A stretch of DNA of 36,521 bases from Bacteroidota bacterium (GTDB lineage Bacteria; Bacteroidota; Ignavibacteria; Kryptoniales; JAKASW01), in NCBI GenBank assembly GCA_021845665.1, contig JAJZVO010000043.1, forward strand, positions 1 through 36,521. The letters are read 5' to 3'. A program made the translations under genes and the position numbers. The notes beneath the pieces were generated by a model. That model was not told the DNA's origin. It ran no database searches and saw only the letters and a list, made by a program, of their open reading frames with translations. Positions 27,858-36,233 of this stretch are shown in pieces (position 1 is the first letter of the stretch; the number at the start of each line of letters is the position of its first letter).

Positions 27858-29150
27858 TTACCTTCGTACCAGCGGTACATACTGCCGCTGCGCGTGGCCG
27901 AGGTAAAGCTGCCGCGGGCGTGCAATTTTCTGCTCGCCGTCCAGAAGCATCTCTTCCCACTGCGCAACCCAGCCCGATGTCCTGCCGATCGCGAAAAGTA
28001 CGGGAAACATGTCGACTGGGAACTTCATGGCCTGGTAGATCAGACCTGAGTAGAAGTCTACGTTAGGATAAAGTTTTCTCTTTACGAAGTAGTCGTCCTC
28101 CAGAGCGATCTTCTCGAGCTCCAGTGCGATATCGAGAAGCGGGTTCCGTCCGGTCACCTCGAACACGTCGTCCGCGAGCTTCTTAATTATTTTCGCCCTC
28201 GGATCGTAGTTCTTGTATACCCTGTGTCCAAAGCCCATGAGACGTTTGTCGCCCTTTCCCTCCTTCACCTCTTTTATGAAGGCAGGAATTTTGTCTTTCG
28301 AGCCGATCTCTTTAAGCATGCGAAGTACCGCTTCGTTCGCTCCGCCGTGTAGCGGACCGTACAGGGCAGCAGAAGCCGCCGCCAAAGCAGAGTACGGATC
28401 GACATGCGAGGAGCCGACGCTGCGCATCGCGTTGGTACTGCAGTTTTGTTCATGGTCGGCGTGCAGGATGAAGAGTACATCCAGAGCCTTCTCGAGAACG
28501 GGATTCGGTTTGTAGTGCGCTTCGCTTCTCTTGAACAGCATTTTTAGGAAATTACCGGCGTAGGTGAGATCGTCTTCCGGGTGAGTGTACGGTAAACCGA
28601 TGGAGTGTCGATAGGCGAAAGCGGCGATAGTCGTCACCTTTCCAATAAGTCTGTAGATCTGAAGCTGTCTCGACTCGGCATCGAAGATGTTCTTTGCATC
28701 GGGGTAGAATGTCGAGAGGGCTGCCATCGTACTCGTGAACATCCCCATCGGGTGTGCATCGTAGTGGAACCCGTCCATAAACTTCTTGACGTTTTCGTGG
28801 ACGAAGGTATGGAGGGTGATGTTCTTCTTCCAGTCTTCGAGCTGTGGTTTCGTCGGGAGCTCACCATGACGAAGCAGGTAGGCCGTTTCCAGGTATGTCG
28901 CCTTCTCCGCGAGCTGTTCGATTGGATACCCTCGATACCTGAGAATTCCCTTGTCTCCGTCGATAAAGGTGATTGAACTTTTGCACGACGCGGTGTTCAT
29001 GAAGGCAGGATCGTAGCTCATCAGGCCAAAATCATCGTCGCTGACCTTGATCTGCCGCAGATCCATTCCTCGAACAGCCCCGTTTTCGATCGGTAATTCA
29101 TACTGTTTCCCGGTTCGATTGTCGGTCACGGTTAAGCTGTCTTTTGGCAT
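27858..29150 (-). CDS. gltA: citrate synthase
   Basis: 430 residues. It condenses oxaloacetate and acetyl-CoA, entering the TCA cycle. Catalytic regions are present: CSTNAMRSVGSSHVDPYSALAA, GPLHGGANE (His), GFGHRVYKNYDPRA (His), and PNVDFYSGLIYQ (Asp). It is close to the type II, NADH-sensitive hexameric length. I chose the ATG at 29150 because GGAGGA lies directly upstream; the frame extends 14 residues further but without a site. It is monocistronic, with a strong terminator and divergent or empty DNA upstream. Confidence 0.96.
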   Translation of the reverse strand: MPKDSLTVTDNRTGKQYELPIENGAVRGMDLRQIKVSDDDFGLMSYDPAFMNTASCKSSITFIDGDKGILRYRGYPIEQLAEKATYLETAYLLRHGELPTKPQLEDWKKNITLHTFVHENVKKFMDGFHYDAHPMGMFTSTMAALSTFYPDAKNIFDAESRQLQIYRLIGKVTTIAAFAYRHSIGLPYTHPEDDLTYAGNFLKMLFKRSEAHYKPNPVLEKALDVLFILHADHEQNCSTNAMRSVGSSHVDPYSALAAASAALYGPLHGGANEAVLRMLKEIGSKDKIPAFIKEVKEGKGDKRLMGFGHRVYKNYDPRAKIIKKLADDVFEVTGRNPLLDIALELEKIALEDDYFVKRKLYPNVDFYSGLIYQAMKFPVDMFPVLFAIGRTSGWVAQWEEMLLDGEQKIARPRQLYLGHAQRQYVPLVRR

Positions 29151-29546
29151 AATTCCTCCGTTTTTTCGGAAATTGCCCGCGGTATGTGTCATCCCATGCT
29201 GACCTGCATGATGCCAGGATTCATTAAGTTGCAGGCATCGGTCGGAGAAGTACGGTTTCCCGCGGGAGCTCCTTCAGTTAAGTACCGTCTGATTTACGGC
29301 ATTTGATTTTTTAAATTGCGAAACGGACATCTCTATGTGAATTGTCTCTTCGCCGAAATGTGGAACTTGATTCGTATGAAAGGAAAGTCACGTATCGTTG
29401 CTGACCGCGTTCTCCGTTCGTCATCGGTAATTTAGACGAATCAGACAGGAGTTGGATTTCCAATTTCAACGGTCTCCACGTGAAAATTTTTGGAAGATGC
29501 AACGACGATACCTTCGATCAATGGTCAACCTCAGCTGCATCTCTCT
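29151..29546. other. region upstream of gltA
   Basis: About 400 bases with no recognised gene. It holds the GGAGGA site of gltA (29153-29158) and presumably its promoter. AT-rich patches around 29300-29320 (TTTGATTTTTTAAATTG) could be part of it. Confidence 0.4.
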
Positions 29547-29903
29547 TCAACTCTTCTTCCGGCTTGATTTCCTCCGATCCGAAACCGTGAACCCGTCAAC
29601 TTGTGTGTGCCGTGCACCGTCGGGGCCTGTTCCGACAATTCTGTACTCAACCTTCTGACCGGAAGTGAAAGGTCCGATTATGGCAGCCCAGTAACTGTTG
29701 TTTCTGCCGTAGTCGTTATAGCGCCATTCGGCATGGACCGTTTGTTTGGATTCCTTCGAATCGGGACCGGAAGTCTCTAATTCCAAAAAAATTTCCTGAC
29801 TGAGTTCGATCGGGTAACTACCGATCCAAATCACAACCTTGTCGCTTGGGAACACCTCAGTTGGGGTCCGGGGAGCATCGTCTGTATTGTGCCAGATTAC
29901 CAT
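29547..29903 (-). CDS. small protein of unknown function, Ig-like/carbohydrate-binding-like beta domain
   Basis: 118 residues. The sequence has the look of a single beta-sandwich: strands KVVIWIGSY, SQEIFLELET, HAEWRYNDYGRNNSYWAAIIG and EYRIVGTGPDG, then VDGFTV. The WxYNxxxxNNSYW and GPFTSGQKVEYRI pattern resembles starch-binding or other Ig-like modules fused to glycosidases, but here it stands alone, without a signal peptide. A basic tail (RRKSSRKKS) ends it. The ATG at 29903 is the first start after an in-frame stop; no good ribosome site is visible. A fragment of a larger lost gene is possible. The function cannot be given. Confidence 0.55.
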   Translation of the reverse strand: MVIWHNTDDAPRTPTEVFPSDKVVIWIGSYPIELSQEIFLELETSGPDSKESKQTVHAEWRYNDYGRNNSYWAAIIGPFTSGQKVEYRIVGTGPDGARHTQVDGFTVSDRRKSSRKKS

Positions 29904-30359
29904 TGCGCTTCAATCCGTCATTCATTGTGTGCCGTGCCGGCGCCACTGAAATTGAATCTGAGATGGAAGTCTCGAGCAGTAAAGGCGAGGACTCAACCGG
30001 CCTAACCTGTTCACCCGGATTTGGGTCTTGAAGACCATATCGCTTCCGAAAGAACCAGCGGTCTGTTCTCGCATCGAGCCCTTCCTTTTGTACTAATGTA
30101 CTTCTCAAAGCATTTAAGCGCAATGCACTCCCGGTGCTTTTCAGAAGAATCTTGATTGATATTTTCAGAATCTACCTCACCGCCTTTGTCCCATGGCGCT
30201 TACATCTCGGCTTGGGTTTTCGGTACCATGAAACCATCATACGCAACCCCTGCACGTCGGTTGTGCAACTTTTTCACGTTAACCATTAGCACCCTTCGAA
30301 ACGGGTTGATTATCCAAACTTCTTTTTGGCACCATCATTGAATTGTTATCGATATGGTT
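29904..30359. other. sparse intergenic region
   Basis: No conserved gene. A 22-codon frame on the minus strand (30172-30240, begins MMVSWYRKPKPRCKRHG) has AGGGG 6 bases before its ATG, and another frame continues as APWDKGGEVDSENINQD, so a small frameshifted gene is conceivable. Otherwise I see nothing. Confidence 0.25.
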
Positions 30360-30534
30360 ACGTCTTTCTGTGAACATTCACCGGCATCCAGAAAGGAGAA
30401 ACAGGGTCAATAGGTTCTGCAGAAACTCGCCTGCGGCTCCCTTTGCCACGGGCAGGAAAGTACGAGAGTTCCTTCATGCCTGCAGTAGACGCCTGCTGTT
30501 TGAGTAATCTTGACAGCGGGCGTCTCTCTTTTTA
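30360..30534 (+). ncRNA. structured leader or small RNA ending in a terminator
   Basis: The segment ends in a strong terminator (30487-30534), yet no plus-strand gene lies upstream, so either an independent RNA or an attenuated leader is implied. Three CCTGC elements (30430-30434, 30479-30483, 30492-30496) can each pair with GCAGG (30452-30456); the third lies in the 5' arm of the terminator. Such mutually exclusive pairings are typical of riboswitches and attenuators. It matches no family I can name (not SRP, RNase P, tmRNA, TPP, cobalamin or c-di-GMP). The 5' boundary is a guess. Confidence 0.45.
30487..30534 (+). terminator. Rho-independent terminator 16 bases upstream of the next ATG
   Basis: Thirteen-base stem 30487-30499/30513-30525 (AGACGCCTGCTGT with ACAGCGGGCGTCT, one G-U pair), 13-base loop, then CTCTTTTT. 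Among the strongest hairpins in the window. Confidence 0.85.
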
Positions 30535-30549
30535 CTTATATAGTGGACT

Positions 30550-30969
30550 ATGAGAGCATCCGGAGTTTTCATAAGAACAGCAACCTTCATTGTACTGTCG
30601 ATTTTTCTCGCCTCGTGTGCAACTCTCTTTACCACTGCGGCAGGCTCGTATAATATCTCTGGCATCGAGGCCGAGGGGAGGAGCAATGGATACGTTTTCA
30701 CGATTGAAGCGGCCGGAAAGATAGGGAGGGTTGAGGCTTGGATGGGACCCGGCAATTGGCTGTATATCTCAATACCGGATACGAACCTCGATTCGGACCG
30801 ATTGAGTAACCTCGCTTCCTGTCCGGTTGTCTCCGGCATGCAATTTTTCCGTTACCACGGATCTGTGCAGGTCACTCTGCATATGAAAACCAAGTTCGAT
30901 CATGTAAGTGTTCTTAATTACAGAGATGACAACAACGTTTATGTCGTTTTGTACAAATATACCAATTAG
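30550..30969 (+). CDS. small lipoprotein, AMIN-like beta domain
   Basis: 139 residues. The N-terminus is a lipoprotein signal (TFIVLSIFLASC, Cys23), so the protein should be anchored in the inner or outer membrane. The mature part is beta-rich (VFTIEAAGKIGRVEAWMGPG, WLYISIPDTNL, and VQVTLHMKTKFDHVSVLNY), similar in outline to AMIN domains of envelope proteins, though I cannot confirm the family. The ATG has no Shine-Dalgarno site and lies just after a terminator hairpin, which suggests controlled read-through. The barrel gene follows after 44 bases and may be its partner. Confidence 0.65.
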   Translation: MRASGVFIRTATFIVLSIFLASCATLFTTAAGSYNISGIEAEGRSNGYVFTIEAAGKIGRVEAWMGPGNWLYISIPDTNLDSDRLSNLASCPVVSGMQFFRYHGSVQVTLHMKTKFDHVSVLNYRDDNNVYVVLYKYTN

Positions 30970-31013: not shown

Positions 31014-31523
31014 ATGCTGAAACGCCTGTTAGTAATATCATTCGTCGCAATATCATTCTGCACATTTTCAAATAGACTTTATGCTCAAACAACCGGAATC
31101 GGCGTCGGCCTTATGGTAGGGACCCCTACAGGGATTTCTGCCAAATTCTGGACTTCTAATGTGAATGCAATTGATCTCGGGATAGGATGGTCAAACAACG
31201 GTACCTGGACGCACCTAGGGAATGGCTATGCATACTATTACACCCAAAGTCTCTTGCATATACAAGTGGACTATGTCTGGCATGCCTTCCATGTCATCAG
31301 ATCGCAAGAGCGTCTTCCTCTTTACTACGGATTCGGGCTTCATTTCGACAGTGGTAATACTGTCCCTACGGCAATCGGGGTTCGGGGCGTAGGCGGAATC
31401 GATTGGATGCCGCGAACAGTGCCGCTGGATGTCTTTCTTGAAGTTGCGCCGGTGTTCTATGTCGCTCCCACTGCAGGATTGGGCTTCGATGCCGGACTTG
31501 GAGCGCGGTTCTTCTTCCAGTAA
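31014..31523 (+). CDS. small outer-membrane beta-barrel protein
   Basis: 169 residues. Signal peptide MLKRLLVISFVAISFCTFSN ending at LYAQ, then about eight amphipathic strands (GIGVGLMVGTPTGISAKFW, AIDLGIGW, LLHIQVDYVWH, LYYGFGLHF, TAIGVRGVGGIDWM, DVFLEVAPVFYV, and LGFDAGLGARFFFQ), ending in the aromatic strand FFFQ. The size fits an eight-stranded barrel like those of small OmpA/OmpW-type proteins. The ATG is preceded by AAGAGGAC. It is probably cotranscribed with the lipoprotein gene. Its function is unknown. Confidence 0.75.
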   Translation: MLKRLLVISFVAISFCTFSNRLYAQTTGIGVGLMVGTPTGISAKFWTSNVNAIDLGIGWSNNGTWTHLGNGYAYYYTQSLLHIQVDYVWHAFHVIRSQERLPLYYGFGLHFDSGNTVPTAIGVRGVGGIDWMPRTVPLDVFLEVAPVFYVAPTAGLGFDAGLGARFFFQ

Positions 31524-31657
31524 GAGTGAATTCACAACGATTCTGATCGCTTTGAAGGACTCTTATCCCGAAACGGCCAATCCATAAAGTTTTCGAAACT
31601 TTCAATATTTCCTTGCTATTGACTCAAAAAAGCTGTTATTTTTGAGCAAAATTGAAT

Positions 31658-32758
31658 ATGTCAAAATCAAAATATCTGGCAGGAAAGAAAATCGTTCCTC
31701 ACCCCATACCGGGGGGGATAAAAGTCACCGATCTGATCGATAACTATTTTCAAGCTTATAACGCGGCAAGATTGAGAGAAGCTGCTCAACTGTTTGCGCA
31801 GAAAATGCTTGCCCCCGATGTGACGATCGGGATGAGCCTGACTGGGGCGCTGACACCGGCGGGTCTTGGCGGCTCGTGCGTGGTTCCGCTGATTAAATCG
31901 GGATTTGTCGACTGGATTGTATCCACCGGCGCAAATCTATATCACGACACGCATTTCGCGATAGGTCATTCGCTTCACAAGGGAAGTCCGTTCGTTGATG
32001 ATACTCTTCTCAGAAAAGAAGGGGTGATTCGTATCTATGACATCCTTTTCGATTACGAAGTCCTTCTATCCACCGACGCGTTCTTCAGGCACCTGATCGC
32101 ACAGCCTGAATTTCAAAAAGAGATGGGTACGGCGGAATTCCACTACAATGTAGGGAAATATGTTGCGGCAAGAGAACGAAAACTTGGGATAAAGAACGCC
32201 TCAGTCCTTGCGACTGCTTATCGTTACGCCGTGCCGGTGTATACTTCCAGTCCGGGCGACAGCTCGATAGGGATGAACGTCGCGGCGATGGCCCTCGACG
32301 GGTTCGGCCTTAAACTCGACGTTTCGCGGGACGTGAATGAAACTGCTGCCATCGTGCTGAACGCAAAGCGCAAGGGAGGCCGGAGTGGTGTATTGATTTT
32401 CGGTGGCGGCTCTCCGAAGAATTTCATGCTCCAGACGGAGCCACAAATACAGGAAGTTCTCGGCATAAACGAGAAAGGACACGACTTCTTCATACAGATA
32501 ACTGACGCACGGGTCGATACCGGCGGTCTGTCCGGTGCGACTCCTTCTGAAGCTGTGAGTTGGGGAAAAGTGGACCCAAGCAAGCTCCCCGATACCGTTG
32601 TTACATATCTTGATTCAACTGTCGCTATGCCGCTGATCACCTCTTACGCCCTGGCGAAGCGCAAACCGAGAAAGCCGAAGAAACTCTACCTCCGGCTCCC
32701 TGAATTAATGGAGTCGCTCAAGAAAGAACACGATAGGGTAAAACATAAACTAAGATGA
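31658..32758 (+). CDS. deoxyhypusine-synthase-like protein
   Basis: 366 residues from the ATG at 31658 (a TTG at 31652 would add two). The fold family transfers aminobutyl groups from spermidine. Conserved parts: [23 protein letters not shown]-type segment, [44 protein letters not shown], and [12 protein letters not shown]. Lys304 in SWGK aligns with the catalytic Lys of eukaryotic DHS (EAVSWGKI). Bacteria have no eIF5A, so the substrate is unlikely to be that protein; polyamine synthesis (for example homospermidine, reported for some bacterial DHS homologues) is the best inference. It overlaps argJ by 4 bases (ATGA), linking it to ornithine/arginine metabolism. A Lys-rich tail of about 30 residues ends the protein. 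Confidence 0.88.
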
Positions 32759-33963
32759 ATTTCTCTTACGATTGCTCGATTACGTTTCCCAAGGGCTTCA
32801 AGGCCAGCGGAGCAATTGTCGGAATCAAGGCCAACGGTAATTACGATCTCGGCCTTCTGGTCAGCGAAACCGCCGCAACCTCCGCTGCGGTATTCACGAG
32901 GAACAAGTTTAAAGCGGCTCCTGTCGTTCTCAGCCGCGAAAACCTCGTAAAGAGCGGTCATAGAACCAGGGCGATTATCGTCAATAGCGGATGCGCCAAT
33001 GCCCTCACAGGAAGGAACGGTATCCTGGCGGCAAACAGAACCGTCGCTGAGGTTGCCAGACAACTACGGGTACCGAAATACCAGGTCCTTGTCGCTTCAA
33101 CCGGCGTGATCGGCAGACAGCTCCCCCTGCAGGACATCAAGGATAATATTCCGGGCCTTCTTGCCGCTCTTAAATCCGAACCCGACAATCATTTTGTCGA
33201 GAGCATTCTGACGACCGACAAATTCCCCAAACAAGTCTCACTCGAGGTCGCGCTTTCTTCGAAGAAGAGCCTCAGGATCGGCGCCACCGCTAAGGGCGCA
33301 GGCATGATACATCCGAACATGGCAACGATGCTTTGCTTCGTCACGACCGATGCGGTGATTTCACAGAAGAAGCTTGCGGCAGCGCTTGAGCATGCTGTCG
33401 ACAGTTCGTTCAATACAATAACCGTGGACGGAGATACGAGTACAAACGATACAGTCTATGTCCTTGCTAACGGAGCCTCTGGTGTGGAAGTGCACACGCC
33501 CGCTGACTACGAAATTTTCGCGGAAGCACTCGTGAAGGTCCTTCGTGAACTTGCCATGATGATAGTGAGAGACGGAGAAGGTGCAACGCGTTTCGTGACC
33601 GTGAATGTCGAGTCGGCTGCCAGCTATGCGGACGCCGTGAAGGTCGGAAGGGCAGTCGGGACATCGCCTCTCGTAAAAACCGCGATTTTTGGTGGTGATC
33701 CCAATTGGGGAAGGATACTCTCCGCAGTAGGGAATTCTGATGTGAAGTTCGACCCGGCCAAGGTCGAGCTGAAACTCGAAGGAAAGAGCATTTTTAGGCG
33801 CAACGAACCGCAGCCGGTCGATCACAGAATTCTCGAAGAGATGTTCGCGAAGAAAGAGATTGAGATGACCATAAGGCTCAATGCGGGAAAGGAATCGGCT
33901 CGAGTCTTCACATGTGACCTGAGCTACGATTATGTGAAAATAAACGGTGAGTACACCACCTAA
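32755..33963 (+). CDS. argJ: bifunctional glutamate N-acetyltransferase/ornithine acetyltransferase
   Basis: 402 residues. It transfers the acetyl group from N-acetylornithine to glutamate in the cyclic arginine pathway. It is made as one chain that cleaves itself before the catalytic Thr; the site [14 protein letters not shown] is intact with Thr191. Other family features: [10 protein letters not shown], the [12 protein letters not shown] segment, [11 protein letters not shown], and [15 protein letters not shown]. Whether it also uses acetyl-CoA cannot be told by eye. No other arg gene is nearby; the partner is the DHS-like gene whose stop overlaps its start. Confidence 0.95.
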
Positions 33964-34377: not shown

Positions 34378-35067
34378 TCAGTTTGCATCCTTCTTCTTGT
34401 GAATGTCGATCATATTTAGGTTGTCCACGTAAATCGTGCTGTCAGTATCTTTCAACTCCACGAATTTTCTCGCGATTTCCTTAAGCCTGTCCGCAGTTTC
34501 TGCGATGAGCTGAAGGCCTTTGTCGATTTTTTCGTATTCGCCGTTCTTGATCGATTTCCGCATCATGTCGAGCGCGAGATAGATAACGTTCAAGGGATTA
34601 TTGATTTCGTGACCGACCGTCGCAGCAAGTTCCAGCACGGCTACTCGTCTGGTAAGCTGTTGAATCTCATTATGCAGCGTTCGGACCCGGACACCGCTCT
34701 CGACTCTTGCGAGCACCTCCTGATGTGGAGCGGGCTTAGTGATGTAGTCGTCGGCTCCGGCCTGGAGTCCACGGACCCTGTCCTTCACGTCGCCTTTCGC
34801 CGTCAGGAGTATTATGTAAGTGAATCTCAAGTTCGTATCGCTCTTGATCCATTTTGCCACTTGTTCACCGTCCATCTCGGGCATCATCCAGTCGATCAGC
34901 ATTACGTCCGGTTTGAATTTTGAAGCAGCCTCGAGCGCCTCACGTCCGTTGCTTGCCTCCATTATTTCATAGCCCGCCTTGGAAAGGACTCTCTTGAGGA
35001 TTATTCTCGCATTCGCGTCGTCGTCGACCAACAAAATTTTCGAGCTCAAATGTCTTCCTTTGTCCAT
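34378..35067 (-). CDS. response-regulator receiver fused to HisKA dimerisation domain, no ATPase
   Basis: 229 residues. Residues about 8-128 form a receiver domain: acidic patch VDDD, phospho-acceptor Asp59 in MLIDWMMP, LLTAKG, and Lys111 in ITKPAP. A coiled linker (HNEIQQLTRRVAVLELAA) leads into an H-box, ATVGHEINNPLN, with His153, and a second helix to about residue 205. There is no HATPase_c domain, so the protein cannot autophosphorylate by the usual route. It may act as a phosphorelay intermediate, or dimerise with the PAS kinase whose gene overlaps its start by 22 bases. The start is the ATG at 35067. Confidence 0.9.
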   Translation of the reverse strand: MDKGRHLSSKILLVDDDANARIILKRVLSKAGYEIMEASNGREALEAASKFKPDVMLIDWMMPEMDGEQVAKWIKSDTNLRFTYIILLTAKGDVKDRVRGLQAGADDYITKPAPHQEVLARVESGVRVRTLHNEIQQLTRRVAVLELAATVGHEINNPLNVIYLALDMMRKSIKNGEYEKIDKGLQLIAETADRLKEIARKFVELKDTDSTIYVDNLNMIDIHKKKDAN

Positions 35068-36233
35068 TTAGGTATCGTGAAAGAAACCGTTGTCCCGAGC
35101 CCGGCCCCGTTGCTTTCCATGGTTATTTCTCCGCCCATCATTTCAACCAGGTGCTTGGAGATGACGAGTCCCAGGCCGCTCCCGCCATACTTGCGCGTTG
35201 CGGTTCCATCTACTTGTATGAATTTTTGAAAGAGCTTGTCCTGCTTTTCCTTTGGAATTCCTATGCCCGTGTCTCGCACTTTATACTTCAGGTATTGGCC
35301 GGTTATCTCTACGGATACTACGATTCCGCCTTTGTCCGTGAATTTTATTGCGTTACCGACGAGATTGATAAGGACTTGTTTCAATTTCCTGACGTCGGCA
35401 GCTGCGAATAGAGGAGTCTCAAGCGTGACGCATTCCAGCTTGAGATTCTTCTGATCCGCCTGTACTTTGAAGAGCGCATAGACCTCTTCCATGATTTCGT
35501 CGACATAGACCTTCTCGATCTGGAGCTGCATCCTGCCGGACTCTATTTTTGAAATGTCGAGAAGGTCGTTTATCACATTCAGAAGATGATAAGAACTGTC
35601 TAGAGCGTTTCGCGTGAATAGCCGCAGCTCTTCGTCCCCTTCGTAATATCCTTCGGTAATTAAGGTGAGGAATCCGATTATGGAATTGAGCGGGGTTCGA
35701 AGCTCGTGAGAAGTGTTTGCAAGAAATTCGTCCTTCAGCTGGTTTACCTCCAGCAAGTGCCTGTTAAGCTTCTCCATCTCCCGGAATCGCAGCATCTCCT
35801 TCCGGATTGTCCCTTCGGAAGAAGACTTTCCGTGCCTGTCGGAAAGCGTCACTACACCGGCAATCAACTTGACCAACCCCCGCGTTTCAATTGCCACGAC
35901 TTGTTCGTTGACTATAAGCCTTTTTCCCCCACGCGAGTTTATGCGGTACGAAAGATTCCGAGCGGTCGCTGAAGATTTGGATGTGTATCGGAATCCGTGA
36001 AGACGTTCAACGTCATCGCGATCTATGACAACCTCGTTGTAAAAGTTGTTTTTTAAAAAGGAGGTGACGGGATACCCGGTCAGTTTTGTGAATCCGCCAA
36101 CGCAACTCTTTGGGCTGAACAGCTTGGCCGAAATTTCAGCAGTGTATATAAAACCTGGAATCTGTTCCAGGCCCCGACCATTTTGCTTCTCTATCGGGCT
36201 GGCGTCCTTATTTTGGTGGTCTGCGGTTGTCAA
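35046..36233 (-). CDS. PAS-containing sensor histidine kinase, soluble
   Basis: 395 residues. A PAS-like sensor region lies at about 22-135 (GLEQIPGFIYTAE, GGFTKLTGYPVTSFLKNNF). Then comes a dimerisation domain with SHELRTPLN (His176) and a complete ATPase domain: N-box LINLVGNAIKFT, G1 DTGIGIP, F-box LFQKFIQ, and G2 GGSGLGLVISKH. No membrane helix is seen, so it senses an internal signal. The start is probably the TTG at 36233, since no ATG lies between the upstream in-frame stop and the PAS region. It is translated just before, and overlaps, the REC-HisKA gene, its likely partner. Confidence 0.92.
   Translation of the reverse strand: MTTADHQNKDASPIEKQNGRGLEQIPGFIYTAEISAKLFSPKSCVGGFTKLTGYPVTSFLKNNFYNEVVIDRDDVERLHGFRYTSKSSATARNLSYRINSRGGKRLIVNEQVVAIETRGLVKLIAGVVTLSDRHGKSSSEGTIRKEMLRFREMEKLNRHLLEVNQLKDEFLANTSHELRTPLNSIIGFLTLITEGYYEGDEELRLFTRNALDSSYHLLNVINDLLDISKIESGRMQLQIEKVYVDEIMEEVYALFKVQADQKNLKLECVTLETPLFAAADVRKLKQVLINLVGNAIKFTDKGGIVVSVEITGQYLKYKVRDTGIGIPKEKQDKLFQKFIQVDGTATRKYGGSGLGLVISKHLVEMMGGEITMESNGAGLGTTVSFTIPKWTKEDI

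Follow-up and report, generated by a model that had tools for sequence, protein, structure and literature searches.

A predicted sigma54-type promoter, a conserved intrinsic terminator and an overlapping candidate second promoter upstream of an AMIN-domain lipoprotein operon in Candidatus Kryptoniota

Our preferred reading, to which we assign a probability of about one half, is that two tandem promoters, with a partial intrinsic terminator between and within them, control a lipoprotein/barrel operon in the window, a stretch of 36,521 nucleotides from a 4.6-Mb genome. Judged from sequence comparison, the leader of a transcript predicted to depend on sigma54 contains a conserved terminator, which overlaps a predicted second promoter. 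The comparison covers 13 congeneric genomes (Ca. Kryptoniota), the one that contains the window (G000) included. The relatives that have names are MAGs carrying the label Bacteroidetes or Candidatus Kryptoniota, and G003, G012, G009, G010 and so on are congeners.

The original prediction placed a strong terminator 16 bases before the ATG of the lipoprotein gene, and this holds: the T-run lies at 30529-30533 and the ATG at 30550, leaving 16 bases between the end of the terminator and the start codon. The terminator (30487-30534, plus strand) is built on a 14-bp stem in which 30487-30500 pairs with 30512-30525 (dG of the hairpin, -26.2 kcal/mol), with CTCTTTTT after it; stem and tail CTCTTTTTA together give a d-score of 11.8. 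The element has both parts of an intrinsic terminator, a stable G+C-rich hairpin and then a U-rich tract (tail CTCTTTTTAC), and is predicted to fold with a probability of 0.98 or more. Dinucleotide shuffles of the window yielded, for each strand, 0.8 sites with a d-score of 11.8 or more but just 0.05 that also had dG <= -20, so that such an element is rare by chance. For the full 181-nt stretch, the folding z-score is -3.0 on the plus strand and -2.1 on the minus strand. The T-tract, which begins 3-4 nt past the stem and is interrupted, follows the hairpin on the plus strand only, and a minus-strand terminator was rejected since the reverse hairpin has no T-tract. A terminator scan missed the element because its loop is longer than the 8-nt limit of that scan. 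The counterpart in G003 has a d-score of just 0.7.

A sigma54-type -24/-12 promoter, P1, is predicted upstream of the operon (TTGGCACCATCATTGAA, 30326-30342, plus strand; predicted start at about 30353). This box is the top-scoring 17-mer upstream of the lipoprotein ortholog in all 13 genomes. Its GG and TTG are kept in 13/13, with GC at -12 in 5/13 and GA or GT in 8/13 (GA in the window). The box alone is modest evidence, reaching p < 0.03 in only 8 of the 13 genomes when scored by itself; it becomes convincing because an NtrC-like 17-bp palindrome, a probable enhancer-binding-protein site, lies at a fixed distance from it (TGCACGTCGGTTGTGCA, 30251-30267, plus strand; centre at about -94 from the P1 start). 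In nine genomes the pattern TGC-N11-GCA precedes the box by 73-75 bp, and two more have five of the six palindrome letters at 73-76 bp; control offsets gave no perfect match in 5200. A genus-wide search for palindrome and box together returned almost only these operons, with few stray matches. Given the conserved box and the fixed palindrome, the terminator would lie in the leader of an enhancer-activated transcript that starts at about 30353, with a predicted leader of 197 nt (30353-30549, plus strand). The genome that contains the window encodes rpoN and about 20 full-length enhancer-binding proteins, compared with the three sigma54 activators reported for Flavobacterium psychrophilum (PMC9723704). 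In G005 (L040), three tandem TGC-N11-GCA sites, 13 bp apart, lie upstream of P1 where a single one would be usual.

Five genomes (G000, G012, G003, G009 and G010) have a leader of 196-200 nt in which 24-26 nt separate the hairpin from the ATG. In FastTree trees G001, which is not one of them, falls among these five and leaves their monophyly in doubt. The other eight of the 13 have different P1 starts and mostly shorter leaders, without the hairpin. The T-tract occurs in G000, G012 and G003 only; G009 and G010 keep the hairpin without a proper T-tract, and an upstream hairpin in these two, GGAAG-TCAC-CTTCC-TTTTT, fails as a terminator on d-score. Identity to G003 is 48% at fourfold-degenerate sites, 58% in the 5' leader, 93% in the terminator 3' arm, 100% in the T-tract and 100% (20/20) in the block just 5' of the terminator (GTTCCTTCATGCCTGCAGTA, 30468-30487, plus strand). 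In two sister species the terminator is more conserved than expected under neutrality, and the stem persists in two more. The pair 30489-30523 has undergone compensatory changes, being A-U, G-C or C-G depending on the genome; two pairs are altered on both sides, and the outer stem in G009 and G010 is built from other sequence with pairing retained. Stem cells are paired in 91% of cases, compared with 27-54% after sliding by 1-3 columns. In a shuffle control, the five sequences passed for pairing and did not pass for the number of covarying pairs, and we regard the covariation across them as supportive of an RNA stem, short of conclusive. The covariance search in relatives that had been proposed with the original prediction found the hairpin at five loci of the genus only, and the same terminator and spacing recur nowhere else. 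BLASTN against the source genome found one copy of the element, at the present locus. Two weak extra covariance matches (G000:C95, E 0.0075; G037, E 5.8e-4) resemble ordinary gene-end terminators and were set aside.

The second promoter, P2 (30510-30540, plus strand), is predicted inside the terminator. Its TTGACA (30510-30515) lies in the terminator 3' arm and is followed, after 17 bp, by TACTTATA (30533-30540), which is one base off TAnnTT and lacks the final G. The hexamer and the 17-bp spacing are shared by G000, G012, G003 and G010, the box being TACTTTTT in G012, TACCTTTT in G003 and TACTTTCA in G010. In the genus as a whole, TTGACA-N15..19-TAnnTTTG occurs at 54 sites, against 25 for a reversed control, and the spacing is 17 in 33 of the 54; the spacing in P2 agrees with this peak, which speaks for P2. 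G003 and G010 retain TTGACA though its A breaks a stem pair (C.A at 30499-30513); in G009 the C-G pair is kept and the hexamer is lost (TTGGCA). The promoter motifs have a fixed geometry, and the terminator, its pairs, its T-tract and the P2 hexamer are conserved in the alignments. Since the TAnnTTTG box of Flavobacterium is placed at -12 to -5 (PMC9723704), P2 is predicted to start at about 30545, which leaves five nt ahead of the ATG. P2 would be a housekeeping-type promoter giving a near-leaderless mRNA; leaders this short are uncommon but have precedent, since in Bacteroides thetaiotaomicron about 3.7% of 5' UTRs are shorter than 10 nt (PMC7366714).

We postulate that an enhancer-binding protein binds at 30251-30267 and switches on sigma54 polymerase at P1. 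The P1 transcript would fold the 14-bp hairpin, most polymerases would halt at about 30530-30534, and a leader RNA of about 180 nt would be freed, while polymerases reading through would produce an operon mRNA with a long leader. The TTGACA of the 3' arm could double as the P2 -33 element, and P2 would supply a basal mRNA. Because P1 transcription would be halted at the terminator, a limited share of activated transcription would reach the gene, and the terminator could thereby act as a built-in brake that also keeps P1 transcription from passing unhindered across P2. The most likely role of the element is to limit read-through by partial termination; actual transcription, the efficiency of termination and any regulation of it are what we infer from this arrangement.

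Regulated attenuation is possible. The order of predicted start (30353), terminator (30487-30534) and ATG (30550) is the anatomy of a transcription attenuator, with a terminator in the leader of a gene. The region is like bacterial attenuators in having a promoter, a structured leader, an intrinsic terminator before the first gene and a mutually exclusive upstream hairpin. It differs from them in its sigma54-type promoter and in the second promoter within the terminator, and no sensor domain, leader peptide or known protein site was identified here. The small hairpin, CAGTAG-ACGC-CTGCTG (30483-30498, plus strand), overlaps the terminator 5' arm and is the only candidate antiterminator; it could also be a folding intermediate. 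A protein, a ligand or the elongation complex might stabilise it, or another fold, and so block the 5' arm and pass sigma54 transcripts. The hairpin and the terminator are mutually exclusive, minimum-energy folding of the leader prefix yields the hairpin in each of the three genomes with the T-tract, and the hairpin lies in the most conserved block, where one U-G pair becomes C-G in G012. However, it has just 6 bp against a terminator of such high folding probability, it is partly lost in G009 and G010, it has no Rfam match, and its conservation is equally explicable by the terminator or by P2. We consider regulation of this kind unlikely. A leader peptide from the ATG at 30477 (26 codons, with a stop overlapping the lipoprotein ATG) was also rejected: the frame is open in three genomes, and substitutions, read by eye off the alignment, are spread about equally over codon positions, as in non-coding DNA. 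Quite doubtful, too, is an attenuator specific to the clade, whose CAGUAG-CUGCUG antiterminator would be stabilised by a protein or ligand and would thereby gate enhancer-activated sigma54 transcription into the envelope operon, with the terminator-embedded housekeeping promoter giving a basal, near-leaderless mRNA. To our knowledge, a combined promoter/terminator switch of such layout has not been described.

The likeness to a terminator could instead be incidental to a DNA operator, with a dimeric repressor or activator binding the inverted repeat CGCCTGCTG/CAGC(G/A)GGCG over the P2 -33 hexamer. The repeat overlaps TTGACA, lies 24-26 bp from the ATG and is kept in five genomes, two of them without the T-tract. 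Nevertheless, an RNA stem accounts better for arms of 13-14 bp, for covarying outer pairs and for the outer sequence of G009 and G010, which is rebuilt yet still pairs, and three genomes share an invariant T-tract within the P2 spacer. An operator seems to us rather unlikely.

It is quite improbable that the region encodes an independent small RNA (30353-30533, about 180 nt) that is made from the sigma54 promoter and acts in trans, with the lipoprotein made from P2 alone. Such an RNA would have its own promoter and its own terminator, the fold has z = -3.0, and the downstream gene has a predicted promoter of its own. However, the body of the RNA (30353-30467) is 58% identical to G003, near the value for fourfold sites, the element is single copy and always adjoins the lipoprotein gene, and in eight relatives P1 leads into the gene without the hairpin. 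The 5'-UTR-derived and intergenic small RNAs of B. thetaiotaomicron are likewise short and run from a start site to a Rho-independent terminator; the RNA here differs in being predicted only, in its poorly conserved body and in being tied to one operon (PMC7366714).

The original prediction also described an on/off switch in which GCAGG (30452-30456) pairs with any of three CCTGC elements (30430-30434, 30479-30483 and 30492-30496). All of these are present in the window, but the pairing is weaker than the terminator and is not retained upstream of the orthologs: in G012, GCAGG has become TCAGG and the first CCTGC is CCCGC, and in G003, GCAGG is GATCG, the first CCTGC is CCCGC and another is TCTGC. 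By the condition set out with the original prediction, this loss refutes these pairings. In the three genomes with the T-tract, the strongest upstream rival for the 5' arm reaches about -10.5 to -11.3 kcal/mol, and its position differs from one genome to the next. Rfam searches at the gathering threshold and at E <= 10 returned no family matching the element, a Cyano-2 match being due to chance (10.4 bits against a 40-bit cut-off). A metabolite riboswitch working through GCAGG/CCTGC alternatives is highly improbable: the elements exist in the window but are lost in G012 and G003, no shared aptamer fold was seen and the 5' leader is poorly conserved. What stands of the original prediction is an attenuator-like anatomy, or a short terminated RNA, in the lipoprotein/barrel leader; its riboswitch is unsupported because the switch is not conserved and has no Rfam match. 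The original prediction did not include the sigma54-type promoter or the second promoter within the terminator.

The tandem promoters of the arrangement that we favor have parallels in F. psychrophilum, where sigma54 promoters precede envelope-stress and surface genes, one operon having two promoters (PMC9723704). The remFG-sprCDBF locus of that organism resembles the layout predicted here in having a sigma54 -24/-12 promoter and a promoter for another sigma factor before a surface-protein operon, with -7 boxes of the TAnnTTTG type; a terminator lies between the promoters here, whereas none is described there in the available text (PMC9723704). Searching the literature for attenuation in sigma54 leaders gave no close precedent.

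The operon begins with the gene for a 139-aa AMIN-domain lipoprotein (30550-30969, plus strand; lipobox LASC), which has an ortholog in 13/13 genomes, followed by a gene for a small beta-barrel-like protein (31014-31523, plus strand) that adjoins it in 12/13. As originally predicted, no gene lies upstream on the plus strand; the nearest upstream neighbours, a citrate synthase gene (27858-29192) and a 118-aa ORF with a weak Lmo2446-like_N match (29547-29903), which diverges from the operon, are both on the minus strand. The 118-aa protein is conserved and divergently placed in three relatives examined. These three share the gene order of minus-strand citrate synthase and small ORF, then lipoprotein, barrel protein and a deoxyhypusine-synthase-like gene. 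In the window, 31652-32758 encodes a protein of the deoxyhypusine-synthase family (PF01916), in a bacterium, and directly 3' of it lies an ORF (32755-33963) that we take to resemble ArgJ. Further on, 34378-36233 (minus strand) encodes adjoining response-regulator-like and sensor-histidine-kinase-like proteins, judged from ORF translations.

The lipoprotein aligns with the domain that precedes Amidase_3 in amidases of the same class. Its AlphaFold model (pLDDT 81) matches AmiC (PDB 4bin) with Z 12.9 and rmsd 3.1 over 108 aligned residues, spanning the N-terminal (AMIN) part of AmiC and far above a heat-shock-protein background of 7-8. On the strength of this model, the lipoprotein is an AMIN-domain protein with the AmiC fold, and the operon product is a predicted cell-wall-binding lipoprotein. 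In contrast to the AMIN domains of AmiC and PilQ, which its predicted fold resembles, the lipoprotein stands alone, without an amidase, and Pfam and NCBIfam searches gave no match. The AMIN lipoprotein appears to occur as a stand-alone form mainly in this genus; elsewhere in the class, its relative is the linker domain of cell-wall amidases.

One sequence thus apparently serves both as an arm of an RNA terminator and as a DNA promoter element. If termination is regulated, the region would be a new leader element; if it is not, the arrangement is neat but ordinary. Either way, activator site, two promoters and terminator make up a testable regulatory map for an envelope operon in an uncultured phylum in which regulation is almost unstudied.
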